Below, piece after piece: positions 1-36,949 of a stretch of DNA of 64,000 nucleotides (its first letter is position 1; the number at the start of each line of letters is the position of its first letter). Position numbers and translations under genes: made by a program. The notes beneath the pieces are model-generated. The model was not told the origin of the DNA and made no database searches. It saw nothing but the letters and a program-made list of their open reading frames with translations. This stretch comes from Xiphophorus maculatus (lineage: Eukaryota; Chordata; Actinopteri; Cyprinodontiformes; Poeciliidae): the NCBI RefSeq assembly GCF_002775205.1, contig NC_036454.1:15272882-15336881 (forward strand). Direction: 5' to 3'.

Positions 1-3000
1 ATAACTAATGACTTGACCTCAGCTGTGTGTTACTGGGATGGAGGACGAGTCACCAACCTGTATGCCAAGAGGAAAACAAGCTACTCCATAAATAAGAGGT
101 ACGTAGTCAACCTAGCAAAGTAAATACTTGCAAAAAGATTTCCACTTGGCCATAAACTACTGCATAGCACAGCTGCACAAACTTAGAGGACGAAACTTTC
201 ACCATTTACCAAATGGAAACTTAACCAGTGGCAAAATTCCACATAATTCCTGAACAACGTGGCAAGAATAATTTGGAGAGCATTGCTTCAGCCTTTATAA
301 AGCAGCCTATGCTTAAATTACATAAATATGTGAATCACACAATCGATCATAATCTACAAAACAATCTGAAGGATGAGATATTAACCCCTTTATAGAGTAA
401 TGGTTATAATTGTACTTAAAAGAAGGAATTTTTATTTTCTTAGAATGAGTGTTTGCAAAGGTGGATTAAAAAAATCAAGATGAAAAATCTGCATTTGTCT
501 GAAATGTATATAAGAAAAATTAAGTCTAATGTCAGCAAGTAAGGATTTAAATGGGTGAACATTTACCAGCTACTGATTTGGAAAAGATTAAACATCAATT
601 TACAGATTACTTATCAGTTCACAGATAGCAGCCATTAAGAGCTCTGCAGCTGCCTGTCTGTCAGAAACAGGATAGTTATAATTTTTAGGCATAATTCAGG
701 GTTTTAACTTGACATAATCTGTTGAGAAACATTCTTTAGCTCGAAGATTTTCTTATTCAGATGCATTCTTATCTGCACTTGCATTAAAAAAAAGGGCTAC
801 TGAGAACACAATAAAAAGTAAAATAAAAAACAGTCCAATTGTGAACGTAATAAATAAATGTATTGAGCAATCTATAAATCTAACTAAAAATCACATGCAG
901 AAAAAAACAAGGAAATGTGTAATCTGTGTTTTTACTTTAAGGGTTACATTTCTAAAATGGGAAAATCATCCAGTTCTATTGGATATGAGCAGATTTATTA
1001 TTTTGTCACAATATGTAGTATTCATTTTGAGGGTCCGGTGGACCACTAGAGTGCTCTGCTCACACCCAGACTACAGGATGTAAAGGTTTATAGATGTGCG
1101 TGTTTGGACCTTTTTGGCACTGTTGTTCTAAGATGGAGTTGAATGAACGAGAGGATTCAACTTAGCTCCTGTGTCGTCTCCATTATTCTTACGCAGGGGC
1201 AAGAAAAGTGACAATAATAAACATTACAGAAACCATCTGTCGTCTTTTCTGTAATTTTCTCCATGGAATCAACATCGAAAACAGCTTAAAGAGCAAAACA
1301 ATTTAGACTCTAGCATCAGTTTTTTGCAAAAGGCATTAATGCTGACTGATTGATACATCAATATGTCAGTAAGTCGGGGCGTGCTGTGGTGGTGCAGGGG
1401 GTTAGCACGCCCCACATTTGGAGGCCTTAGTCCTCGACGCGGACGTCACGGGTTCAACTCTCGGTCCCGACGACCTTTGTCGCATGTCTTCCCACCTCTC
1501 CTCGCCCTCTTTCCTGTCTGCCTACTGTCACAAAAAATACGAGCCGCTAGCGCCGCAAAAACTCTTCGGAGGAAAAATAAAAAATATGTCAATAAGTCAT
1601 TAATGATGATTTCCAGGCAGTGTTTTTTTTTTTTATTCTGTCACTTACCGTCTGAGATAATACAGTAATTCTGAGCTGTTAATAGTTGAATGTTCTCCAA
1701 AAAATATTTTTCTCTAGAGAGAAACAACAGAAAAAGAGAGATAAAAGCTATAAAGCACTTAGGCTAAGTAACAACTTATGTCTGACTAATGGTGGGTTGG
1801 CTCTCATCCAGACATTTTGCAGAAATCTTTTGAAAGATGGCCAAAACGTCCTTTATTTTTGATCTACCACATCGCTGCTTAAGTCTTTGCTTATTTTGCT
1901 TTCTGAACTGCTTATGGAGAACCTGTAGATAAATACACAGTGCTTTAAAAAAACAAAAACAACACCCAAAAAACAAAAAGATTATTTCATTACATTTTTG
2001 GCCCATGGACCAGATCAGTGTTTTAATCTGGAACCTCTGGATCTTAAACCACATTTGGTTTAGACGTGTAAACAAAGCATTCTGTCTGCTATTTTGCTAA
2101 TGAATATTTGCAAACAAACTAAAATGAGAATCCCGCCCAGGTCTCATAAGTTTAAGTGTTATGAATTTTGAAATGGTGTACAAGTTGGTTTGGATGCCAA
2201 AAAAGTAAATCCCAAATAAATTGTTTTGTGAATGTTACAAAAGATTTCTAAAAGTCTGGTGAAATAATAGATTTTTAAAAATCTATAGGAAACTTGTCTG
2301 ATCTGCTTTTAATCAAATACTGTTATTGTTGCGTCATTATCTCTGTAGGGACTGTCCTGACGGGAAGTGTGTGCTGCCTGAGTGGGACGGTAACTGGACT
2401 CTCTTGGCAGTTAATCCCCTAGGCCAGTACAGTCTGACTTACTCAGCTGAACTTCTTCACAGAGGTAGGTGACCAGACCTTACTCTTCACCAGTGCGTCT
2501 AGTATACACTTTTGTTGATCTAGTTCCCGCAATAAGATTGGTGAAGACAGAATCTGTATTTTTCATAAAAACTTTTGCTACTCATCAGCTCATGTATTGT
2601 CTCACTGTTGCCCACAGTGGTGCCAGTAGCACCAGTTAACCTGAGTGCCACTGACGATGCCTGGAATACCACTGTGAATTGGCATTGGCCATACAGTAGC
2701 TATAACACCCTGGCTCTTCTCTGCCAGGTACAACTGGCCAGCCACAATATATTGGTAAGTTATTTCGAAAAGTTTTTTTTTTAAATCCAAAACTTGAAAA
2801 TCTAATTTTTTAGGGTTTAAACCCTGAAATATGTCCAGATTTCCTCTATTAAGTTTTAAATTACATTTAGTTGCATCAATAATTTTGTTGTTCGTTTATT
2901 CTAAGAAAGGCAACAGGACAAAACTGAAAGCTTAACCCTTTACTGGGGAAACCTTAACATATTTTAAAACTTTTAAATCAAAATATTATCCTACCAGCTT

Positions 3001-6000
3001 CATTGTTGTGGAAAAATATTTTGCATATATTCAGTCTTTATCAGGGACCACAATTATTGTAATGAAAAACATGGGAGGGAAACCCCATGTAGTGCACTAG
3101 AAATTCTCAAACAGATCTTTATTAATTTTAAATCTTATTGCACAAACAGCTTGATGCCATCTGTATGAGACCATATTTGGTGGCTTTGTGATGTTTTTAT
3201 AATGAAAGCACTTTGGAATGCCTTTTTGCTGAAATGTGCTGTACAAATATACTTGACTTGACTTATTCTTTCCTTCCTCTCTAAACCATAAATGGTCTGA
3301 TGCCAGTCATCTAGGCATGGAGTCTGCGTCCACTAAATGCAAAATCTGAATAAATGCTCATCACTCATAAAGTGGATTTGCATGCCCAACATTACTTTTA
3401 TCTCTAAATTGTTCAAAACAATTGGAAGTGTTTAATGTTTTCCTGCCAAAGCATCAGTACGATTTGAACTATTGATTTTCCCTGAAATGCTCATTGCAAA
3501 AATATTTATGGTTAATGTTATCTTGGTGCACTTGAGTGGCAGTGGGCAAGATGGTAGGGTTCTGAGCTAGCTTAAGTTCATAAATAGGAAACCTCATTAA
3601 AATTATTTTTCTTGAGTAATAAAATGTAGTTTTGATCATCTTATTTTTTTTTGTATTTCCTGTAGCTTAGAAATTTCTCAGGTGTGGGTCTCCAGTCTGT
3701 TTTCCTGCCTCACCTCCACCCTAACACCAAATACAGAGTTCAAATCCAATGTGGATCCCTGAATCACTTTTTAAAGTGGGGCAACTGGAGCAAAGAATTT
3801 AATTTCACAACCAAATCATATGGTAAGAGTTTTAATTTTCATTGGTGTTTGCGAATGAATGTTATCGTAAGGGAAGGTACCCGGTTTGATTGTAGTTTAT
3901 GTATTTATTTAAGGGTTTTTATAAAGACATAATGACCATTATTGTTATTACAGGGTTCTGTTCCATTCATTTGTTTTTGGCAGAAATTTCAGTTTCAGGT
4001 ATAGTGTAATTATTTACCTTTTTTCTTCTTCTGTGTTTAGTTCCTGAAGCCCCCGATGTGTGGATGTTTGTGAACAGAGACAACTCTGTGCGGGTTATGT
4101 GGAAGGTGATGTCTTTTCTTCAAAATCTTTCTTTTTTCTTGTTAGAATATGCAGCATTTACATCTAGGTAACAAGCATTACCCCGACTCTCTACAATAGT
4201 TTTCTTTCACATAAAGAAGTTTCTTATTTTCAGACTTCAACATGAAAATAATCTTTCTTCATTTTGTTCTCGTTTTTTTTTTAGCCTCTGACGCAATGGC
4301 AGAGCCACGGTGTGCTCACAGGATACGAAGTTACTCTCTGGAGCCTTGAAGAAAATGAAAACCAAACCAATAATTTATCTCCAAAAGATAACTCTTTGAA
4401 CCTCACGGATTGGGCTTCAATCACTGCTGATAAGAAAGCCATTGCATCAGTGAAGGCAAACAATGTAAAGGGGATGTCTCAACCTTCCAGCATAATGTTA
4501 GGTTTAATAGGTATGTGTGGAGAGAGGGTGAATTTGTGGGATGTTTCACCAGAATCTAACTCTCTTGTCTTTTCTGTGTCTGATTAAATTGTCTTTAATA
4601 GGTATTTAGACCTGACACTTGTGTTTTGTGGACCGTGAAAACAAAGGGATGAGATCAATACCACATACAGGAAAAGAAGAGATGTCTACTGCTTTACTAA
4701 AAGCTATACTTCTCATTTTCAGATGACAAGTGCGCTCCTTTGGCTCAGACCATTTATACCAGCAGTGGTTTCCCTTTGAGCTGGCAGCACAGTGACAACA
4801 GTACAGGCGGTTATTTGGTTGAGTGGTGTGAAGCTGTGTGCACGTCAGACTGCGCTGTGGACTGGATCAGACTGGACGCTGGAAGCACTCATGTCTCCAT
4901 TAAAGATTCTATCGGTATTCAGACTTATGAATGACTCTTCTAAGTCAAATTTAAATGCCGTTAAGATTTTTTTTTGTTTGTTTGCTGTAAATTTAGGGTA
5001 AAATATTTCAGATTTTATTGTATAATATGGTGCACAATGTATAATATTGAATGTATATATATATATATATATTTTTGGTCATCAGTTAAATTCCAGCCAG
5101 GTGTGAGATACAACTTTTCCCTCTATGAGAGCCCATCAGTTTCCCCTGTACTAATACGGCGCTGGCAAGGATATATTCAGGAGCTGCGTAAGGATTGTGC
5201 AATATCCAGAAAATGAAATCTACTTTGGTGATTTTATGTACTGTTCTGTTTCATTTACATCTGTCTGCTGTGACCTCTGCAGCCCCGTCTATTTCTGTCA
5301 ATCTGGAGATCAATCAGCAGGACTGTGACGTTGTTCTTAGCTGGGAGGAGATTCCACTGGCTGGCAGAAGAGGCTTCCTCCTAGGCTACAAAGTTTACAG
5401 AGTCAATAACTTCTCCAATTTCACACTACTTGGTAAATTCACCAGTTTACTGCCACAGTAAAGTGTTTCATAAAGGGGAAAAATCTATAAAACATTTCTT
5501 TTCTCTCTTTCTCTTGTTATTTTTGCCATTTAATTCAACAAATAAGATGGTGCGTGAAAATGGTAATTTCACTCAATAACATATTGGTTGCTTCCTTTTC
5601 TTTTCTGCATCTTTTCCAACCTGACATTTTTGTAGACGATCTGAGCCCTGAAATGAGGACGTACACTGTGAAGGATCTCTCTACCAGCACCTACAAATTC
5701 ACTGTGAAGGCTTACACATCTGCAGGCGAGGATACAGGCGGCACTGCTGCCATCACGCTGAAGCAATGTGGTGTGTGAATTACGAATAAAATTCAGCTAA
5801 TTTATTTTATGTTCAGATAAGATAAACATATGTGAATGTGTTTTTTTTTTTTTTTTTTACTGAAAATATGCTTTGATGTAGTCCAATTATAATGTGTGCC
5901 CTCATCAGAAAATCTTTATTCTTTGTGACCAGTTTCGTGTTTGGTTTTTTGTTTTGTTTTTTTCCTAACAGCGGATGGACTGATTCTGGAGATTTTGACT

Positions 6001-7071
6001 TCTTTGGGAATTGTGACTCTACTACTGACCACTGTTAGTTGCTTTTGCTACAAGAAAAGAAGATGGTAAGAATGTTTGGATAGTTCTTTGTGTTCTTGAA
6101 AAGAATGTATTGACTGTGAAAATCTACATTTCTTAGTATCTTAATATGTTCTACACTGTTAAATCTATGACCATAAATATCACACAGTGTAACAAGTGAT
6201 ATTTATTTGTTTCAGGGTAAAAAAGGCTTTCTACCCGGACATCCCTGAGCCCAAGCTGCCTGGTGATTGGTCGAGAACACAGGTACAGTACCACCTTAAA
6301 GGAGTCCAACTCTTCTGTACTCACATCTACAAATGACCAATCACCATCCATGTTAAAGTGACCCTGTAGTCTCTAATTTGTGCCTTTCAGGGACCTATGG
6401 ACGTGAAGCCGTTTCCCCACAGCATGGTCCACATCATAGAAAAACCCGAGTGGGATTTTAGTAAGGACACTCTCGTTATCATTCCTGAGGAAGAGGATTA
6501 TGAGGGAGAGGGAATTGGAGATGAGCCGGTAGACACAGATGAGCCTCAGCTGTTGCGTTACTACAACCAGGTGGTGGACGAGCGCCCCATTAGGCCGCGG
6601 TTTCCAGACTCCTCAGTTTCATCCTCGTCTTCTGTAGATTCAGCCAACACTGATGTGACGTACACAGGTATCCAGACATCCCACTCTTCTTTGGTCTTCC
6701 CTTCAGACTCTCAGGGATTCTCTGAGGGCTTCCAACCACACAGTGGCCTCTCTTTAAGCAGCAGGAATAAAGGAGAGGGTTACCACCCACAGATGCACTC
6801 TGTAACCCTGGGTGGAAACCTAGCTTCTCCTGAGCCCATTGTGGAGCCTCACGCTGTTGGTTCTGAAGGCTACAAGCCCCAGAACTCCTGGCTTTTAGAC
6901 TCTCCCACTGAGGGAGATGAAAATAGCCCGGCCCCCTCGCTGGGTTCACCCACCTCTGTAGCTTCTACTCAGTTCCTCCTTCCTGACAGAGAAAGACATG
7001 AAGAAAAGAGACAACAACCATCATCAGCAGCAAACTGGTTCACCAACCTGCTGTCATCTGCAAAACCGTGA
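1..7071 (+). CDS. lifr: Leukemia inhibitory factor receptor, 3' part (13 exons, gene enters from the left edge)
   Basis: Type I cytokine receptor that pairs with gp130 to signal through JAK/STAT3. Exons read: 1-98, 2349-2464, 2618-2754, 3666-3822, 4041-4105, 4285-4510, 4723-4914, 5086-5187, 5283-5432, 5636-5770, 5970-6065, 6216-6282, 6391-7071. The extracellular part shows fibronectin III modules, a WSxWS-like WGNWSKE in exon 4, and the LIFR-like string QPGVRYNFSLYES in exon 8. Exon 11 encodes one membrane helix (LILEILTSLGIVTLLLTTV) followed by basic residues. Exon 12 holds box 1 (FYPDIPEPK; human LIFR has FYPDIPNPE). The last exon has two YxxQ STAT3 docking motifs, YHPQ and YKPQ, and ends with an SPTSVASTQFLLP tail resembling the human C-terminus. 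The signal peptide and first domains lie outside the window. Fish may have two lifr paralogues and I cannot say which this is. Confidence 0.93.
1376..1582 (+). mobile_element. tRNA-derived SINE with target-site duplication
   Basis: Starts with a GGGGCGTGCTGTGGTGG head and carries a B-box-like GGTTCAACTCT (RNA polymerase III promoter). A CT-rich body follows and the element ends in an A-rich tail. It is flanked by near-identical 16-base repeats, AATATGTCAGTAAGTC at 1360-1375 and AATATGTCAATAAGTC at 1583-1598, differing at one base. It lies in a lifr intron. Two further copies of the family are in the window in minus orientation. Confidence 0.85.
3180..3265 (+). repeat. Dispersed LINE/SINE 3'-tail-like fragment
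   Basis: Contains AAAGCACTTTGGAATGCC and then a TGCTGAAATGTGCTGTACAAATA block, ending in ACTTGACTTGACTT. The same tail occurs at about 16175-16250 and, in reverse orientation, at the left end of the insertion near 21130. It looks like the shared 3' end of a fish retroposon family. The class is inferred only from this recurrent tail. Confidence 0.5.
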
Positions 7072-12310: not shown

Positions 12311-15300
12311 ATGTCAGATATTTTGTGCTCGTGGCTGAACCGTGAACTAAGGCTCTCTGAAACCGTAGGTAAGTATAAATTAAAACAATCCTACGTAGAG
12401 CTAGCTTCATTGGGCTAACGCTAACGCAATAAATGCCTCAATGCAGTTGTGCGATGAAAATGCTTCGTACATTTTTAGCATTTTGTTAAAAAAAAATGAC
12501 ATTAAGTTTTAAAGGCATGGCACAACTGTGCCTGTGGTTTTGATGTCTTAGATTTGAGTTGCGAATATCTGAGCACAGAACTTTCTGAACTTTATAATTT
12601 ATCAAAAGTTTATGACACCATCATTGCTGTCTGTTTCTTAGACGCCAGGAACTTTTGCAAGGATTTCTCTAATGGCTACCTATTCGGAGAGATACTTCAT
12701 AAATATCAGATGCAGGAGGATTTTAATATGTTTCTGAAAAGCGAGTAAGTTCCATATTGTGAAACTAGTGATTATATAGCACCTTTCAAAAGTTCAATGC
12801 AAACTTTACTTAATTGGAATTATATGTGGTAGGCCAACTCACATGCTTATTAGAATTACAATTTATAATTTGTTGTTTCTATACACATGTACAATGAGAT
12901 TAAAACCAACTCCAAAACCAGTGCAAACAGTGGAAGATGTAAAATATCAACATAAATATGGTGGTATTACATACATACCTACCTACATACATGTACATAT
13001 AACCACCATGTGACTAGCACATAGCTTTGAGTAATAAGAGCTTTCTGGAAGTACTTGTTTTTGTTCTGTACATATGTACATACATGTACATATAACCACC
13101 ATGTGACTAGCACATAGCTTTGAGTAATAAGAGCTTTCTGGAAGTACTTGTTTTTGTTCTGGTGCACCTGTAGCGCTTCCCTGAGGGCAGCAGGTCAAAC
13201 ATGTTGGAACCAGAGTGGGAGCTGTCCTCTGTGATGGTTATAGCTCTACTGGGGCAGCTGAGCCCCAGTAGAGCTCAGCTGCCAGAGAGGGAAAATGGGG
13301 GCCAACAATCCTTTGAGCTGCCTTTATGCCTACATAAATGGATGATGGATGAAAGTGCACTTTGTGAGATGGTCAAACTTATGGGATTGTTTTATAACCT
13401 AGCCTTGCTGTGAATCCCTCCACTACTTTATCACAGACTTAAACTGTTGGGCTCCTTGGTCTTAATGATGCCGTTTATTCATTGACTAAAACTGGTTGAA
13501 CTGGACTTTACTTAAGAATATCAAAGTGAAAGGGGAGGAACATAGAAGAACACCAAACTTTACATTGTTGAATAAAAAAGGAGTAACTTCACAACTTTGT
13601 ACTGTTTTGTGTTGGTTTATCACATGAAATCACAACACAGCTTGATGTAGAATCATTCAGCCCCAGTTTGACCATGGTAGATTTTAAAGTAGGTGATAAA
13701 ATGAAGTCCAGATTCTTCAAAAGCAATGAAATAAACCTCCACCCCAGTACTGAACTCAACATTTCTAATCAAATACCAAACTCAATGTCATACTGTTTGC
13801 CAACAAATTTAAAGTGTTCAGCAATCATTAAATTACATTTTTTATTTTAGTTCCTCCGACGCCAAAACCAATAACTTTTCACGGCTTGAGCCAACTATTA
13901 AGCGTCTGGGGGTCAGCTTCAATAAGAGCACAGCCCAAGATCTGATGCAGAAGAAGCACGGTGTCGCCACAAACCTTCTTTACCAGCTCTACGTCGCACT
14001 AGAAGAGAAGAAGCCTGCAGGAACCAGCCGGGTGGTGAAGCTGCCCTCCCTGCAGAAAAGGGAGTCTGAAACCCAGTCCTATGTAAGAGCATTGAATAAA
14101 TGTGTAAGGTATTTTGCAGTAAGAGAGGTTAGAGGCTAGTGTCTGTGGATAATATGCTCTTTACCAATACTCAGCTGACTTTTACCTTTCCATTTGAATT
14201 CAAAATTAGTAGATTGATAATTGATATTATGACAAAAAATGTAAAAAGTATTTTTCCTTTTATACAGCAACTTCCTCAGGTGGTGTCACCCAACGCAGAC
14301 CAGTGTCTTCCGGAAATTACTCAGGATAATGAATGTAAAGAACTGGATGATTTGTCTAAGGCGATCCTACCCATTCAACAAATGAAGCTACCCAAAATCC
14401 AAGATGAGAGAAAACTAGAAAAGAGCGAGAAGGTAAAAAATATGGAAAATAAAGTACATTTTTACTCTTCTATTCAGTTTAACCTAAATATGCCTGGGTT
14501 TGTGGAAAACATACACGTGGTCCTTAGAAGCTTGATAATGTGGGGAAATGTGTGAGTTGCAGATTGGTCATCAGAAGTTCATTGACTTAATTGTGACCAA
14601 TACGAAGCTGCTAAAGCCACTGGACTCCAATGTAGTTCTCAGGAAAAAGAGTAATCAGGAGGAGCTCAAAGAAAAAGAAGTTCAGGTTTGATCAAGATAC
14701 AAACATTTATGTGAATCTTTTCATTTTGCAAAAGGAAGGGTTTTTTTTGTTTTGTTTTGAGAATAGGGTTCTAGGATAATTGTTCTGCTTTTCCAACTGC
14801 TTTGCTTGTGCAGATGGTCCAGGCTGAAATAGCCAAGTTTGAGGAGAAACAGCACAAACTTGCCAACTCTAGTTATGTGACCTTGTCAAGGTAAGAGAAA
14901 ACGGTAAAGTTAATATAAGATACTATTTTATTTAAATGGTTCTGTTTGTAGAGTTGTATACTTTTATATTTATTATTTTCAGCCCCAGTGACCAATCCAT
15001 CCCTGCAGACTCTTCTCTTAGTCCCGTCATACAGGACATTGAAGTCCCTGCAGATAAACCAGATAAAGTGACAATACAATCCAGCACCAAGTATGTACAG
15101 GGGATCCGGCAGCAGCTGAAGGAGAATGCAGTGGCTAGAGAAGAGAGACAAAAAAGAGTAGACAGATTTCTATTGGAGCAGTATAAAGCGCGTGAATCTC
15201 TGCAGGTAAAACTTTGTGAAGTTATATATCCCCAACAGAAACAAATACTCACAGTGGCATCTGTTTTTGTTCTGGAATTTTGCATATCCGCGAATATCCT

Positions 15301-18300
15301 CAATCACATTGTCCTGTACCATGGTTTTAAACCTCTGTTTCAGGAGGCGCAGCTTGAAGACCAAATGGTGCGTCGTCTGACTCGTCAGACGCAGCAGGAG
15401 CAGCGTTTGGCTGAGCAGCTGATGCAGATACGGAAGCAGAAAGAGGTGATTTTGGAGAATCGCCTGTTCAGAGAGGAGCAGTACAAACGTCAGAGAGAAA
15501 AGGATTTTCAAGAAGCTCTGGACAAGGAGGCGGTGAGAAGCATATTCAGTCATTCTATGGGTGGTCACTGCAAAAACAAAATCTTGCCAAGTACTTTTGC
15601 ATGGTTTCTGGAGCAAATATCTGTATGCACTTGAAAAAAGACAAAGCTAACTTAAAAGTACATTGTGATCCAGATATATGGGCTTGTTTTAAGTAAATAC
15701 TTCTTGACCATAGATTAAAAAGTACTATAGTTTCACTGGCAGATGTTTCCCTTATTACATGGTGAAAAATGTGTTATTAGTGACATAATCTGCCAGTGGA
15801 ACTAGTACATTGTCAACAATGTTAGCACATTTTTAGCTTTAAACAAGCTTCTGTATCTTGCTCAGAAGAAAGTGACTTGTAAGTTAGCTTTGTGTTTTTT
15901 CAAGCGTACAAAGATATTTGCACTCAAAACCCAACAAAATACAAGTGAGATTTTGTGGTTTTGCAGTGTTTCCATAGGGATTTCAAGGAAATGTATGGTT
16001 TTGGTGGCTTTGAGTTAATGTGTGGTTGTGTTGTTTGGTGTTATGAACAAAAGAATTTGTAAAATAGACAATTTTACAAGCGTGGGTAAGTAATAATTAT
16101 TAAAGTAAATTTAATGATGGAACTTGACTTAATGTCATGTTTTGATTGTTGATTCTATGTTGCATTGTGTTTCTGTGTTTGATATGATGTAAAGCACTTT
16201 GAAATGCCTTGCTGCTGAAATGTGCTATACAAATAAAATTTGATTGAAGTAAAGAATGGCATTGACAGATTTCAATATTTAAGTAAGAATTCATTATTGT
16301 CTTAATTAGTTCCAACAGCAACATAAAGATTTTGCCATGCTGCCTCTACTAAATCCTTGCTTCTGCCTGGACCTGTTGCAGGTTCTGGCTGAGCATGCCA
16401 AATTGGCTCGAGCAGAAGAGATCGAAAAAGAGATTGAATTTTGCAAGATGGTAGCTGCAGAGCGTGCTCACGAAAAACATATGAAACACTACACCATCTG
16501 CTCAGAGACTTTGGGACAGATAGTGGACATGGCAACCACAGTCGGAGAATATCGCAGCATCACGGAGAAGTACGTGACATCCTCGCTTTTAGAAATATGC
16601 AAGAAACAAAGTATTGTCAGTAGTGGTGCACTAATTGCAGTTTTCTGGCTGACCAGAGATCAACGATCTTTAAAAAACCTAACTTGCCAATTTCGATTTT
16701 CGCCAATACCAATGTTTTTGTTGCTGAGCTGGCAACAGGGGAGTAACTATTGTTAACTGTGAACATGCAGACATATCCTGGTGGGTCGGGCTGTCAGTCA
16801 ACCCTCTCACAGCAGAGCAACAGAGGACGGTGGCCAATTTTCTACCGAGGTAGATAAGATTAGTGGATAAGATTGGCTTCATATTTAAGTATTGGGCGAT
16901 CACCAATCTCCTAAAATTAAGAAAATCGGGGCCAATTTATCAGTACACTCCTAACTGTCAGTGGAATACTTATTTTCAAATTGACCTCTTAGATTTTAGA
17001 CAAAACAAAATGACATTTTTGTGAAAAGGAACCTAAGTTGAATACATGTTTCTGCTATCACAACTTAATGATCTGAAAGATGCAACTGAGTAAGTAAAAG
17101 TTCAAATCCTACAGATATTCTCATTGACTCATGATTCATAGTGATGTCATTAGGGTGTTCGTTCATTTAATAAAATACAGCATGAAAATTAGCAATAGTC
17201 TGTTAGAGTAATGCATCTGTTGCTGCACACTATCGGTCAGCAGGCCGGAAAAAGCTTACTCAACTTATCCCCCGTTTACAAAAAAGTCTAATTCAGCTTT
17301 TTGGAAATGCTTCTAGATCAGCAAAATGCAATAATATTCTGTGCAATAAGCTTGTCAGGACAAATACTGCTGCTAAACGTAGAAGGTGTATTTTGTATTT
17401 GAATCCAGCCAATGTATATACGTAAAAAAAAGAACTATTCATAAGCGCTAACATGCTTATGACTGCAATGATAATTATGTTGTGTTATTTTATGAGCAGT
17501 TAAGTAGTTCATCTGTTTTGTAATAAGGGGAATTTGGTCATTTTATAATTTGTGTTTTGAATTTTTATGTAAATTCTATTGTAGCTGATTATTGTATTAG
17601 AGTCTCTTAGTGGCCAGCTCAACAATTACTGGATGCAAGGTACTTTGTGTTAATATCTCATTTAAAAAATATTTTTCAACTGTTTAATAAATAAATCTGT
17701 TTATGAAACAACACTTAAATTATCTTTTGATATTGTTTAGTAATTTATGACCCTGAAGCCATTTTTTAGATCTATGGTCTAATTGTATCCACAATTTAAA
17801 GTCTACATTTGCTTCTTGACATTTTTCATTCTGTCATTTTCAGTCTTGTTCCAGAGAAGAAATATAAAGAGTGGAAGGAACTGTTCATTCGGGGTGTTCC
17901 CTTCTACGAGTCACAAAAAGACATTGAGCCAGAGATTTTATTCTTAGCAGCATTAAGCCCCTCAGACCTTAAGAAAGAGGAGGTACTCAACAACCTGGAT
18001 TATGATGAATACACTGTGAGTATGAAACTTTACTTCACTACTTTTAAATTCAGTCGGTGTGCTTTGCCAAAGATAACACATGGCTTTCTTTTTTCTTTTT
18101 AATAGAAGAAAGCTTTTTTTTAAAATTCTGTTTTATTTTTAAGAATATGATTGGTGTGTGGACATGGCCAAAGGCTACAGAAGAAACAAAGTTACCACCG
18201 AGCATCAACGACATTCTCGCATATGCTATCCAGCGAATTAAAACTATTGCTCATCCAACTGTTGCGGAACCGGCCACGACCGTTCCTCTATTTTCTATCA

Positions 18301-21300
18301 AGTCCTGCATCAAGGGCAAGGTTTGCCAATGCAAGAGCAAATGTATGGCCAAGATTGCTGAAGGTTTAAAATCTTTGAAGAAAAGAGATTTTCGTATCAA
18401 GGCTTGCGTCCTGGGCAAGGCTTCCTCAGGCAAGACCACATGTCTGGCCAAGATTGCTGAAGGTATACAATTTTATTTAAAAATGTGTGCCTTTTAGAGT
18501 TCACACATTAAAAGTGTTTAGCCCTTGTGATTTCTACTTTGCTGTTGAAATATAAAGTTAATGTTTCCTACCCAGCGCATGGCGTCACTGTGTTGTCGCC
18601 TGACACACTGATTGAAGAGGCGCTGAGGTCTGCTAAAGAAGGAGAGAAGGTAAATTATAGTGCTGGAACTTCTGTCTCGAGGCTTTTTAACCTGCAACTG
18701 ATTTGCCATTTAATCTTAGTTGTTGATCTTAGTTCAAAGTTTAAAGCAGATGTTTTTTTGTGTTTTTTTTTAACAATATAGGCTACAGATCAGCAGGAGG
18801 AGAAGGAGAGCGAGCAGTTTTTTAAACCCCCCACACCAGTTCAGTCAGGTGGTTTATTGAAGCTGCTTTTTCTGTACAGTCTCTTGCAAAACTATTCATG
18901 CCCCTGGAAAGTTTTCACAATTTTGGCATGCTGCAAACTCAAATTTTAATGTATCTCATTGGTATTTATGTGATGGACCACTATGAAGTAGAGCACAATT
19001 GTGAGGTGGAAGGAAGTTCATTTTTACTCTGTCCTATGCACTTTCTCCTTTAAGTAAAAAAGTTGAAAATGTATAAAAATGCTTTTCCGTGGGACTAAGT
19101 AAAATTTTTATTGAAGCTGCTTATGTACTTTTATTTTGCTTTGTTTTTCTTTCTTCTTCCTTTCTTTCTTTCTCAGATTCTAGCAAACCAGAAGAAAAAA
19201 GAGAATGTAGTAACAAAGTGAGTGTTCAAGGGTGCTCATAATGAAATTTTAATACACTGTTTTAATTTTGTATTCCTTTGTACATCACACATTACATTGA
19301 TCTCTCTGGTATTACGGAGGATTTTTCAACTAGTAACATAACAAAGAGACTTTGAGAATCCTAATATTCAAATGAATGCATTTTAGGCATAATTATTCCA
19401 GACCTAACATCTGTTTGTAATGAAACATATCTACTTTCACTTTCTGTTATGTGTTTATGCAGATGGCCTCGATTGCAGCATCAGTAGAAAGGGAGCTGAA
19501 GAAAGGAAATACCATTCCAAATGAGCTGATAGTGGACATTGTAGTTGACGCAATCAGGTAATAATGATGTTACATGAACTATGAAATACTATTTGCATGG
19601 ATTAGGCAGGCCAACTGTTCTAAGTAGGTTGACTGTGGTTCAGTGGGTAGTTGTCTTGCAATTGACAGGTTTTCAGTTCCAGCTTTCTCTTGTCACATAT
19701 CTGCGTATATATGGCTGAAAGTGGCTCTAGTATAAAGCACTGTGAGCTATCAGTATGACAGGAAAATGACTACACAATTTTAGTTGATTTTATTGTACCA
19801 TATTTGATAAAATGGTCATTGGTGTATTGAACTAAATGGTTGGTTTCTATTAATGCGGATTTACAACAAGCACTAAAATAGCTGATTTCTTCCCATTAGT
19901 CAGGTTTCATCTCAGTCAGGTTGGATCCTGGATGGCTTTCCAACTAATATCGGTCAAGCCCAATTGCTGGAGAAAGCTTTGGGTGGGTTTGTGGAAGAAG
20001 AACACGGCACTGAAATCAACACATATGAACTTGTTCCTAATCCAGAGCAGCTCAAACCACCAACACCTATTCCGCCTGTGCTGGACGTGGCTCTTCTGCT
20101 GGATATATCTGATGAGTGTGTGATTAGAAGGGCATCCACAGATAAAGGTACAATTATGTGATTGGAGCTTTTTGCTCTGTGTTATGAAAAAGAACAAGGT
20201 AAATGTTTTTGGTGCTCATGTGGTCATTTTCGTCCCAAAATATCTAAAGATGCTGCTGCTGCAACCTCCCAACCAGCAGATACCACCAGGTTTTCTCCAC
20301 ACATTACACACAGGTAGTACAGCGTTACACCCAGGTAGTACAGCGTTACATACAGATAGCACAACGTGATCAGGCAGGAATACTGCTGGATTGAATTCTT
20401 CTGCATGACTGTAATCTCGAGGTTTGAACTTGATTTGATTTTTTGTGGAAGGATTGCAGCTTTTCAGGATACCTGGCCAGAGCTAGAAAAGTGGTATGGT
20501 GAAAAGCAAAACATTTTGGTTAATATCAACGCTGATGTGGAAGAGAGGGAACTTTATAACAAAGTGGAGTCGTCCCTGTGTGAGGTTATGAAAGAGCAAG
20601 AAGAAGGTGACTTTTTTTCTTTTTACCATTTTAATGTTGATGTTTAGCTGTTAAAGTCAGGTAATTTAGTCAATTATTCCAAATAATTAAATGATTAGAA
20701 TACTTTAATTCAAAGAAACCTCCTTGCTTTTAAACACTGATAAGATTTTCACTGCTTAAGTACAGAGACATTTGTATTTGAATTTGTCAACATGTTTTTC
20801 CTGAAATCTTGCAATTAATTCCCTCAGGTATTCCTGAGGGAAGTTTGGGAATTGAGGAAATCCCAAAAGGTGTGGAAACAAGAAGAAGTTCTAAATCCGT
20901 TAGGAGGGGAAGAGACTCAGGTGAGATTTCACACTTATGACATGATTTGATCACGTCATGCAGTTATTTTAAAGTTAATTTGTGTTTGTCAACATGTTCT
21001 ATTGTGCAGGAATACAATATTTACTCAAATCTTGCGATTGACTCCCTTATTAGTTACTGGGTTTCATGCTGGTGAAGATGGTGTGTTAGATTTCATACCA
21101 AGAAGGAAGAGCAGCTCCATCTTTAAGGCAAAGCAAGGCAAGGCAGATTTATTTATATATAGCACCTATCAGCCAAAAGGAATTCAAAATGCTAATATAA
21201 AAACAAAAATCTAACAACAGATCAAATCAATAAAATCAAAGAAAAAAATTGGGTTAAAAGTAGGCATCAGCAAATAGGATATTTTTTTAAACTAGTTTTT

Positions 21301-24300
21301 GAAAAAACTTGAGGTGTGAGCATTCCTGCAGTGAACAGGTAGTTTATTCCAGATTAGATTTTTGGTGCATAATAACTAAAAGCTGCTTCAGCATGCTTTG
21401 TTGGAACTCATGGAATAGTAATTAGGTTTAGTTCAGATGTTCTTAGAAGTCTTGAGGGTTCATAGCAATTAGGGGTGCACCAATAAATCACCCCCGATTT
21501 CCTTATTTTTTGAAGATCGGTGATCAATGCGTAAATAGGAAGCTGATCTTAACTACTGATCTTATATACCTCAACAAAGATTTAAAAATCTGTCACATTC
21601 CTCTATCGCTTTGCTGTGAGCAATAGAGGACATGATCAGCCGGCTGATCATGTCTGCACATTCGCACTTAAGAATAGTCACCCCACTGTTGCCAACTCAG
21701 CAACTAATTTACCATGAAACAAAACAATTGGTATCAGCCAAAATCAGAATCGGCAGGTCAGGTGATCAGCCAGAAAATTGTGATTGGTGCATCCCTAATA
21801 GCAATGAACAGACCAGAGATGTAGCCCGGGATTTTACCTTAAAGTCCTTTGTAAACCTTCAGTGAAATTTTGAACTCTATTCTTTGAGCAACAGATAACC
21901 AATGTAAAGACCGGACTAATATTTTGGTCTCGATTTGTATTAGAGGAGACTCTCGCTGTGGAGACTCTTCAGCTTCTGAAGAGGCTTGATCAATAGGATC
22001 AAGGGGGACTCTTGATCTTATTGATTTTTTTGGCAGTCTGGGCAAAATAACATTATAATAATCGAGTCTCCTAAAAACAAAGGCATTAATTATTAATTTT
22101 TCAGAGTCCTGTTGAACATGTTAAATCAGAACATGTTAAACTAATTTAAAGGAGATGTGCATTAATTTTTAACCTGTGCCTATTCTGACCAAAAACTGAA
22201 AATTCATTTTTTTCATTACTTTACTGAAGAAAATTTAGACTCATCCAAATGTTAATCTGTTTAATACATTTATCAAATACATGCACCTGACTAAAGTCTC
22301 CTGGTAATAGGCTAATATATAGTTGTGTTTCATCAGCATAATTATGGTACTCTACATTTTTATTCTGCAAAATTTCAAAGGAGAAAATTATGTTGATATT
22401 GAAGAGGAGAGGACCCAGAGTAGAACCTCGGGGAACTCCACAGAGATTTTATTTAGTTTAGATTTATGTGTGAATATGGATAGAAAGAGGGGAAGATATT
22501 CAAATGAGATTTTACTCTTGATCTAAAAATATTTATTAAGACATGATTTAATCAGCTGTTCTTTAATCACGCCTTATACAGTTATTTTAAAGTGAATTTA
22601 TATTTGTCAAACATTTTTTACTGAGCATAAATACAATATTAACTCAATTGTTGCAATTAATTCCCTCATTAGTCGCCGCTGATCTTCTTAGTGACGATCT
22701 GTCGACGGAGGGCACAAGAAGTGTGGAGAGAAGGAGTTCTACAAGGCCCAGCTCCAGCCTCAAGAAGGCAAAAGACACAAGTCAGATTGTACTCTTGATC
22801 TAAAAACATTCATTAAGACATGATTTGATCAGCTGCTTTTGAATCATACCTTGTTTTAATGTTAACTTGTACATTTTTGTGTGATGAAAAGGGTTTTCTG
22901 ACAGTGTGCCACTGTCCGCTGGGTCTATTGACGGAATCAATGACAGCGTCCAACCGCCAGGGTCGTTCACATTAAACCCGCTCTACATAAATGAACCTCT
23001 GTCTCCAGTAAGACATACTGTTTTTATTTACATGCTTTATTTGTTTTTAGGTGGTTTCTGAATACCTGCTTATTCTCTACATTTAGTTGTATCTCTTGCA
23101 TATATTACAAAAAATGTATTCATTTTAGCCACCTTGTAACATGTATAGTACCTTGCAAAGCTCTTTGTAGACCTTTTGTCTTGTTACAGCCACAAACATT
23201 TGTGCATTTTATTGATTTCTTTGATAGACTTCTAGTCTCCTATATGTATTATCTGTCAGAGATAACTGATATTACTCTTTTTCCTGTTTTGCTATTACTA
23301 TCCTCCTTCTCTGCTGTTGATTTAGTTCCCTTATTATCTTTCTCCAGCAAGTACCTGAGTACCTGTGTTCACATTGGAAAGATGTCTGTAATTCTTATGT
23401 AAACACCATGAAGCATGTGATGCAGCAGCTGCGTTTACAGCTCACTCTTATTGATCGCCACCTTTTCAACATCAGGTATCATGTTCAGTCTTTTGGTTTC
23501 TAGGTTTCAACTCGAAGCACCAACTGCCCTTTGTGTGAAATTTTCCATTTTACAAGCTAACAAGAATTGATTGTTCAGTTAAACCAAACATATTTGGATC
23601 CACATTCAGCCAGCAACACCTTGTAGCATATTTTTATTCTTTTTAGAGGTGCAACTAATGATTATTTTAGTTATTAATTAATCTGTTGATTTTTCAGATT
23701 ATTGGCATAACAAAAGGACACATTCTGCATTTTTCTTCTCAGCCAGTATTAAAAATACATTAATAGATGCAAATAAATAAATAATTCGATTCATTTTGTA
23801 GATAATAAAATGCAATAACATGACATTCCTTTAGTGAACATTCGATCATTTGGAGCAAAGGATGCAGATAAAAAACACCTCTAACATCGACATGTAAAAA
23901 GCTCAGCCCTTTCTGCTTGACTAACATTAATACAGTGTAGGGCTAATGTGCTTAATATTTTTTGATTAACCGATTACGGTAATCATTGGACAGCAAAAGG
24001 TGTTTGATAGGAGATTTTGAATTGGATTCATAATTTGGTTCAAGAATTTGAACCATGTGAAGCTAAAACCACCACTTCAGTAGTTCTGGGTAGAATGGAT
24101 TTACAGACAAAAATGTTTCCTTCTTTAGTCTCAAAGAAGGAGACTAAAGTATATAAGCCAAAACTACAGTTTGGGCTTATGTGCTGCGCTGAGTACGTTC
24201 TTTCAGCAAATGACCCTTTTTCAAGACTATACACTAGTTAACAACTAATTGATTGCTAAATTTGTTGACGATTTTTGCAATAAGCAATTCATCATGATTA

Positions 24301-34576: not shown

Positions 34577-34795
34577 TCGATCTGGACAAGCGAGCGTGGC
34601 TGGACGTCAATGTTTATGTAGCTCCTCTATGTCGGGTTTGTGCAACAGCATCAAGGTCTCTGCAATGTGATTTCCTGACGCTGTTTTGTTGTCGTCCCGT
34701 ATAAGCTCGCCGTTTTCCGTCACGTTATGTCGCAGCCTCTGACATGGGGCACCACTAGCCGGTGAAAGACGGAAGAGACGGAGGAAAACGCCGGA

Positions 34796-36949
34796 ATGGC
34801 AGGCGCCTTTGCCTTCAAAGGCTGCCAGAAAATTCGCGGTGCGCAAATCAGGGTTCTGCTCGAAGCGAAGGACTTCTTCCTGTTCGACTGCGACGGGGTC
34901 ATCTGGCACGGGGAGAATGAGATCACGGGAGCGGCCAAGGTGGTGAACGCTCTGATCCGCCGCGGGAAAAACGTGGTGTTCGTCACCAACAACTCCACCA
35001 GGCCCCGGGAGAATTACGTGAACAAGTTCACGCGCCTGGGCTTCACCGACGTGATGCTGGACCAGATCTTCAGCTCCTCCTACTGCTCGGCCCTCTACCT
35101 GAGGGACGTCGTGAAGGTCCGCGGCCAAGTGTTCGTCATCGGCTGCGAGGGGCTCCGCAGGGAGCTGCTGGAGGCGGGGATCCCCTGCGTGGAGGAGGCG
35201 GACGACCCGGACGCCACCATCTACAACTGCGACCTGACTCCGGACGTGAAAGCGGTTCTGGTGGGACACGACGACAAACTGACTTTTCTCAAACTGGCCA
35301 AAGCTACGTGCTACCTGAGGGACCCGGAGTGTCTGTTCCTGGCCACCGACAACGACCCGTGGCACCCGCTGTCAGGTGGACGGATCCTGCCAGGTATGAT
35401 GATGATGATGATTGGAGTAATGAAGCTTGACCCAGTTACAATCAGCTAATTCAAGCGGACAGTTTTCCCCTCCTATGTTTAATATAATATTCTTTAGCTC
35501 TGTTCAAACCTAAAGCTTTGGAGTTGTGTGTGTGAATCTTTGCTGTGATTCATCCCACCTTTTGCTTCAAATACTACAAATGTTATTGTTGCTGTTTTCT
35601 GTTCATTGTTTCTCTTCCCCTCTTCACACCTGAACATCAATAGTGTGCAGTAAAACAAAAATAACATCCTCGTGAAGATAATGTTTCTGTTTCATTGAAT
35701 GCAGAATAGAATATGAATGTGTGAATAGAACTTGAACTGACTACATAATATCAGATAATCACCATTAAAACTCACCTTTGGTTTGGAAACAACTAGGCTA
35801 GGTAATGATTCAAATGAATTATTAACTGTTCTAGCAGCATTATAGATCGCCTGGTTAAAATATTAAGGGTCAGGAGAGTGACCTCTAACCGTCATTTTCA
35901 AGTCTTATTGCAAATTCTCCTTTAGTTTTAGGTCTGGACATCGACTGGGGCATTCCTTCACATGCAGATGCTTCAATCTTTACCTTTCCATTGAGATTCT
36001 GGCTGTATGTTTAGGTCACCCTGCTGCTGGAAGGTGAAGCTCAGTCCCAACTTAAAGTCTTTAGCAGCTTTTAAAAGTTTTTCTCCCAGGATTGCCCAGT
36101 ATTTACAAAAAATAGTCCAAACCCCCTCTTTGACGACAACTGTCCAAATGAAAATTGTGGCATTCATTTTAATTTATCATGTGATTTATTTATTGCTTAA
36201 TGTGACAGGCTTACACACACATAATTTTTTTTTTACCCAATAATAGCCATAAATCTCAGAGTCAGACCGGCTGAAAAACCTGCCGCAGCATCAAGCTGCC
36301 ACCTTGGGAATAGAGCATTCCAGGTGACGTGCAGTGTTAATTTTCTATCAGTGTTTTGCTTGTGAGTCAAAAGTCCAATTGTATCTGACATTTACTCCCA
36401 TGCGGATTATTTAAATTACACACAGATTAACTTTATGAATTACTTGACTTTATATGTGAATTTCTTGCAGTTTTTAAGCTGCATCAATGTAAATACAAAT
36501 GCATAACACACATTTAACATCAGTGATAGGAACACTTGTGTAAACCTATGTCATAACACTTGGAGGCTCCTTCTGTTTTTGATGTTTTGCTCTCCGTAGG
36601 TTCTGGTTCCCTCACTGCCGCCCTGGAAGTGGCGTCGGGCCGTAAAGCAACTGTGATCGGCAAGCCGAGCCGCTTCATGTTCGAGTGCATCTCCAGCCAG
36701 TTCAGCGGCGTGGATCCCGCCCAGTGCCTGATGGTCGGGGACCGACTGGAGACCGACATGCTGTTCGGGTCCAACTGCGGCCTGGACACCATGCTCACCC
36801 TCACCGGCGTGTCTCAGATCGAGGAGGCCCAGGAATACAGAAGCAGTGACCTGAGCACCAACCACAGCTACGTGCCTGACTACGTGGTGGACACCATCGC
36901 CGACTTCCTCCCAGCTTTTGAGGAAATAGAAGAGCAGAACGACGATTGA
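34796..36949 (+). CDS. pdxp: Pyridoxal phosphatase / chronophin (HAD family), two exons
   Basis: Cytosolic HAD phosphatase that dephosphorylates pyridoxal 5'-phosphate and, in mammals, cofilin. Exons 34796-35393 and 36600-36949 join in phase and give 315 residues (human about 296). The catalytic DxD is in FDCDGVIW (residues 31-33). Motif II is FVTNNST, motif III is IGKPSRFMFE and motif IV is GDRLETDM. It resembles human PDXP more than PGP: DNDPWHPLS matches DRDPWHPLS, and RDPECLFLATD and SQIEEAQEY are also PDXP-like. The ATG follows GCCGGA and is the first in a GC-rich CpG exon. Exon 1 has a much higher GC content than neighbouring DNA, and frames open on its opposite strand are by-products of this. 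Alternative: a fish-specific pdxp paralogue. Confidence 0.92.

Follow-up and report, generated by a model that had tools for sequence, protein, structure and literature searches.

The analysed window, a 64,000-nt stretch of the Xiphophorus maculatus genome, carries the gene spef2 on its forward strand. Seventeen exons with AG/GT borders, spanning positions 12642 to 20920, could be joined to give a single 851-codon open frame. Outside this model lie the first exon and those located between approximately 20.9 and 29 kb, and the number of exon 11, the exon of interest here, presupposes one unmodelled first exon. At one junction, the acceptor at 20460 was taken because it keeps the frame open, whereas a start at 20468 joined out of frame. 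Judging by the list of open reading frames, the neighbours on the + strand are a gene at 1-7071 that we take to encode a cytokine receptor of the prolactin-receptor type and a gene at 34766-36949 that presumably encodes a HAD protein of the phosphoglycolate-phosphatase type. Visual inspection additionally revealed a stretch containing GACTAGCACATAGCTTTGAGTAATAAGAGCTTTCTGGAAGTACTTGTTTTTGTTCTG that is present twice in tandem within a spef2 intron (approximately 13000-13160), and an open reading frame on the - strand (22221-22448; NLCGVPRGSTLGPLLFN...) that, in the list of reading frames, resembles a fragment of a LINE reverse transcriptase.

The assignment of the gene to spef2, made in a previous sequence-only reading of this DNA, is borne out by the colinearity of the modelled protein with mouse SPEF2 (PDB 9IJJ chain 4M). 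The protein is also similar to CPC1 (7n6g, 7sqc) and AK9 (9d2f); among the best 60 of the 93 PDB matches, mouse SPEF2 is the sole Sperm flagellar protein 2, and CPC1 is present as well. The calponin-homology region encoded by exons 2-3 matches residues 22-114 of mouse SPEF2 (E 4.5e-27) and CPC1 (E 1.9e-11), the middle of the protein contains an adenylate-kinase-like domain (Pfam ADK, 47.5 bits with a cut-off of 26.8; mouse SPEF2, E 2.1e-33), and the C-terminal region of the spef2 product matches residues 1424-1484 and 1516-1561 of the mouse protein. Exon 11 in its long form (18144..18462, + strand, 319 nt) is bounded by AG and GT, open throughout and colinear with mouse SPEF2. It is followed by exon 12 (18576..18649, +), which encodes HGVTVLSPDTLIEEALRSAKEGEK, the next part of the kinase-like domain, and is placed by its AG/GT borders and by colinearity with mouse SPEF2; its start at 18576 is the one proposed earlier. 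The match to Pfam ADK (PF00406, query residues 226-283, E 2.6e-12) begins in the exon at 19463..19557 (+), which encodes ASIAASVERELKKGNTIPNELIV, and continues in the exon at 19900..20147 (+), which encodes GWILDGFP; both exons were recognized by PF00406 and by mouse SPEF2.

The 3′ part of exon 11 consists of a direct in-frame repeat, in agreement with the earlier claim that this single exon encodes two related P-loop segments. Positions 18291-18375 and 18390-18474 (85 nt) are 79% identical at a spacing of 99 nt, that is, 33 codons. Copy 1 of the 99-nt unit (18291..18389, +) encodes FSIKSCIKGKVCQCKSKCMAKIAEGLKSLKKRD with a decayed Walker A motif, and its last 26 nt are possibly derived from an intron; copy 2 (18390..18474, +) encodes FRIKACVLGKASSGKTTCLAKIAE with an intact Walker A motif, followed by a splice donor and 12 nt of intron. 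Across the 24 codons of the coding part (18291-18362 vs 18390-18461), 57 of the 72 nucleotides are identical, and the best 72-nt self-match within 18144-18488 reaches 58, compared with a maximum of 42 and a mean of 32.4 in 1000 first-order Markov shuffles. The copies had been described as ending in the same bases, each followed by T; this description fits copy 1, which reads GCTGAAGGT followed by T, and fails for copy 2, which reads GCTGAAGGTATAC. No further copies of the repeat were found in the 704-Mb, 101-contig home assembly, where the exon 11 protein query matched a single place and the exon 11 DNA query matched only the two known copies. In viral contigs, eight stretches matched a pattern and none of these encoded a relative in a tblastn comparison, as expected given that spef2 is an animal gene.

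The strict Walker A pattern GxxxxGK[ST] occurs once in exon 11, as GKASSGKT in copy 2. Copy 1 does not match it, and a relaxed pattern picks up GKVCQCKS, so that the pattern scan agrees with the previous description of a degenerate first loop and an intact second one. In the protein sequence of copy 1, FSIKSCIKGKVCQCKSKCMAKIAE, the lysine and the serine of the motif are retained, and the second glycine, the one preceding the lysine, is replaced by cysteine. In this family the P-loop segment presumably forms strand 1, the P-loop itself and the start of helix 1, and it is most likely copy 2 that plays this strand-loop-helix part and binds the nucleotide.

Comparison with mouse SPEF2 bears on the number of copies and on how far each has changed. 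When copy 1 is deleted from the protein encoded by exons 10-12, the remainder aligns with mouse residues 396-548 at 92.3 bits, and when copy 2 is deleted instead, at 80.3 bits, in both cases without a gap at the P-loop; the two-copy protein falls into separate alignments at this point, with mouse residues 501-510 used twice. Because mouse SPEF2 aligns to either single copy without a gap, it has one copy, and the protein encoded in the window, unlike the mouse protein, carries a 33-residue insertion with a second, decayed P-loop segment. The form that retains copy 2 also matches AK9, a second AK9-like chain and CPC1 (E up to 1), and the form that retains copy 1 loses all three. The two copies differ at 11 of 24 residues; the mouse residue is that of copy 2 at six of these positions, that of copy 1 at one and neither at four, which indicates that copy 1 is the more changed of the two. 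The extra copy appears to be a gain in the lineage of X. maculatus, an event polarised by one outgroup sequence, that of mouse, CPC1 being too distant for this purpose (E 0.0092).

The duplicated unit seems to have extended beyond the end of the exon. Of the first 12 intron nucleotides downstream of the copy 2 donor, 9 are identical to those at the corresponding place in copy 1; the 16 remaining modelled introns share 3 to 8 of their first 12 nucleotides with copy 1, and one of them reaches 8. This match is suggestive, short of proof, of a unit that crossed the exon end, such that a former piece of intron, now reading LKSLKKRD, would have become coding. Over the final 14 nt of the unit, the two sequences agree at 5 of 14 positions, a near-chance level, so this end may be either diverged intron or filler.

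The explanation that we consider distinctly probable is an internal duplication, in all likelihood across the exon end, after which splicing normally uses the downstream donor, copy 2 acts as the functional P-loop and copy 1 persists as a diverged insertion. Under this scenario, a 99-nt tandem duplication would have taken the last 73 coding bases of exon 11, probably together with 12 or more bases from the start of the next intron, and so given rise to a second, in-frame P-loop segment. The spliceosome would most likely use the downstream donor in the normal case, with the exon ending at 18462, to yield a protein with both segments. Copy 2, which adjoins the rest of the adenylate-kinase-like domain, would function as the P-loop, and copy 1 would become a 33-residue insertion in the preceding linker, where nucleotide binding was presumably no longer needed and the Walker A motif was lost. 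As such, copy 1 may be tolerated or may perform a minor structural role. Overall, the duplication in spef2 looks like ordinary gene tinkering.

The pattern of divergence between the copies bears on the question of whether copy 1 has simply decayed. The 15 coding differences are distributed over the first, second and third codon positions as 7, 7 and 1, and all 11 changed codons change the residue (dN 0.30, dS 0.067 over 24 codons). When change away from copy 2 was simulated without constraint (three transition-bias values, 5000 runs per value), the P(Sd <= observed) was 0.019-0.038 depending on the bias, in a one-sided test that was chosen after the data had been seen. Plain decay of copy 1 alone, with copy 2 unchanged, would not be expected to leave so few third-position changes, and the shortage may reflect either chance or selected change in copy 1. 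Under the latter alternative, selection would have remade a retained copy 1 into a lysine- and cysteine-rich surface, metal-binding or disulfide element that is present in every SPEF2 of X. maculatus. The excess of nonsynonymous change fits such a history, as does the presence of four cysteines among the 24 residues of copy 1 vs two in copy 2; however, the test involves a single pair of 24 codons and was devised post hoc, and the lysine plus arginine content is nearly equal in the two copies (6 vs 5). To our knowledge, the cysteine spacing in copy 1 fits no known motif. Adaptive remodelling of copy 1 appears unlikely, and a duplication that left copy 1 as a diverged insertion is still the preferred account.

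The duplication also provided exon 11 with two potential splice donors. Donor 1, AAG|GTTTAA (18364..18369, +), would end the exon at 18363, and donor 2, AAG|GTATAC (18463..18468, +), ends it at 18462 in the exon model, one base before the end at 18463 given previously. With a 5′ splice-site matrix that yields crude, approximate scores, donor 1 scores -5.44 and donor 2 -0.36, and the pairing with U1 is estimated at -4.1 and -5.7 kcal/mol, respectively, so donor 2 is the stronger by both measures. By the matrix, donor 1 lies below every one of the 17 modelled donors, which include donor 2 and span -1.06 to 7.54; among the 508 GT dinucleotides in 12600-21000, 266 score at least as high as donor 1, itself counted. 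By U1 pairing, 16 of these 17 donors surpass donor 1, and one, the donor after 16569 (-3.1 kcal/mol), is weaker. Four GT sites within 18150-18575 (18153, 18320, 18342 and 18484) outscore donor 2 by the matrix, and the placement of donor 2 is based on the open frame and on colinearity across the junction with exon 12.

These donors had been proposed as a possible switch between nucleotide-binding and non-binding SPEF2 isoforms. In such a scheme, both would be used under regulation, donor 2 yielding the binding protein and donor 1 a non-binding one of the usual SPEF2 length. Several features speak for this proposal: the two sites share the phase, as stated earlier, and the AAG|GT core, the 17-exon model is open with either (851 vs 818 codons, 33 apart), and the donor-1 product, which can be aligned gap-free with mouse SPEF2 across the P-loop, would dispense with the only intact loop while preserving the frame. 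Competition is conceivable because donor 2, too, is a weak site. Nevertheless, donor 1 has T, T, A and A at +3 to +6, and given that its matrix score falls below those of all 17 modelled donors, a regulated switch is not supported. Furthermore, the protein made from donor 1 scores 24.5 against Pfam AAA_17, down from 36.8 and under the cut-off of 27, although the ADK score, which decreases from 47.5 to 40.3, stays above its cut-off of 26.8. Searching the home assembly with exon 11, as protein and as DNA, brought up no further place that could represent a processed spef2 copy and reveal the choice of donor. The switch is possible but not indicated, and regulated use of both donors appears quite improbable, although, the scores being crude, donor 1 may be used at a low level. 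The alternative offered in the sequence-only reading, a duplication, is preferred. A new intron running from donor 1 to an AG within copy 2 was also considered and is not favoured: the candidates are short, no pyrimidine tract was seen by eye, and an intron between the copies is unneeded because the frame is open through both.

Although a single assembly lies behind the repeat, it is very improbable that it represents an assembly artefact or an individual variant instead of a fixed feature of the species, because the divergence of the copies at 15 of 72 coding nucleotides speaks against a falsely doubled stretch of reads and would also be unexpected for a fresh private mutation. Scarcely credible at present is a combined scheme in which selection remodelled a spare P-loop, one residue after another, to give a non-binding element rich in lysine and cysteine, and the donor remaining from the duplication lets some transcripts carry this element in place of the ATP-binding segment, so that one exon would give rise to both an active and an inactive kinase-like domain.

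SPEF2 and CPC1 are scaffolds of the C1b arm of the ciliary central apparatus and contain an adenylate-kinase-like domain. In mouse sperm, SPEF2 is placed at the centre of the C1b assembly in the accessible text of the structural study from which PDB entry 9IJJ, matched here, derives (PMC12297659). Ensembl lists 5 isoforms of SPEF2 in mouse and 14 in human, as cited in the accessible part of PMC5770417, and nothing relating to the P-loop was found in that part. More generally, neither a duplication of the SPEF2 P-loop nor a P-loop isoform was found described in the titles and opening lines of abstracts among the literature matches listed. Crucian carp produces circSPEF2, a circular RNA abundant in testis that is formed from spef2 exons 10-13 according to the accessible text of PMC13162906, in which no length or sequence that would reveal the exon size was found. 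By our own numbering, exons 10-13 occupy 17844-18848, and the P-loop exon would lie inside the circSPEF2 span if, as assumed, the two numberings agree.

Exon 11 of spef2 provides a clear, small case of an exon-end duplication through which a conserved ciliary protein can gain a module while a competing splice site stays in the exon as a remnant. Were both donors in use, the gene would be a natural experiment on whether the motility of sperm and cilia requires nucleotide binding by the adenylate-kinase-like domain of SPEF2. Among known systems, the intron gain in the potato RdRp gene (PMC4974935, in its accessible part) resembles that of spef2 in that a tandem copy spans a splice border and duplicates the splice signals. 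Unlike the potato case, the copy in spef2 is located at the end of the exon that carries the 5′ splice site; it has lengthened this exon and supplied an additional donor that may compete, and there is no sign of an added intron. The general class of tandem alternative 5′ splice sites likewise combines two in-phase donors in one exon, whereas the donors of spef2 lie 99 nt apart as a result of duplication, and use of the first one appears unlikely from its sequence.
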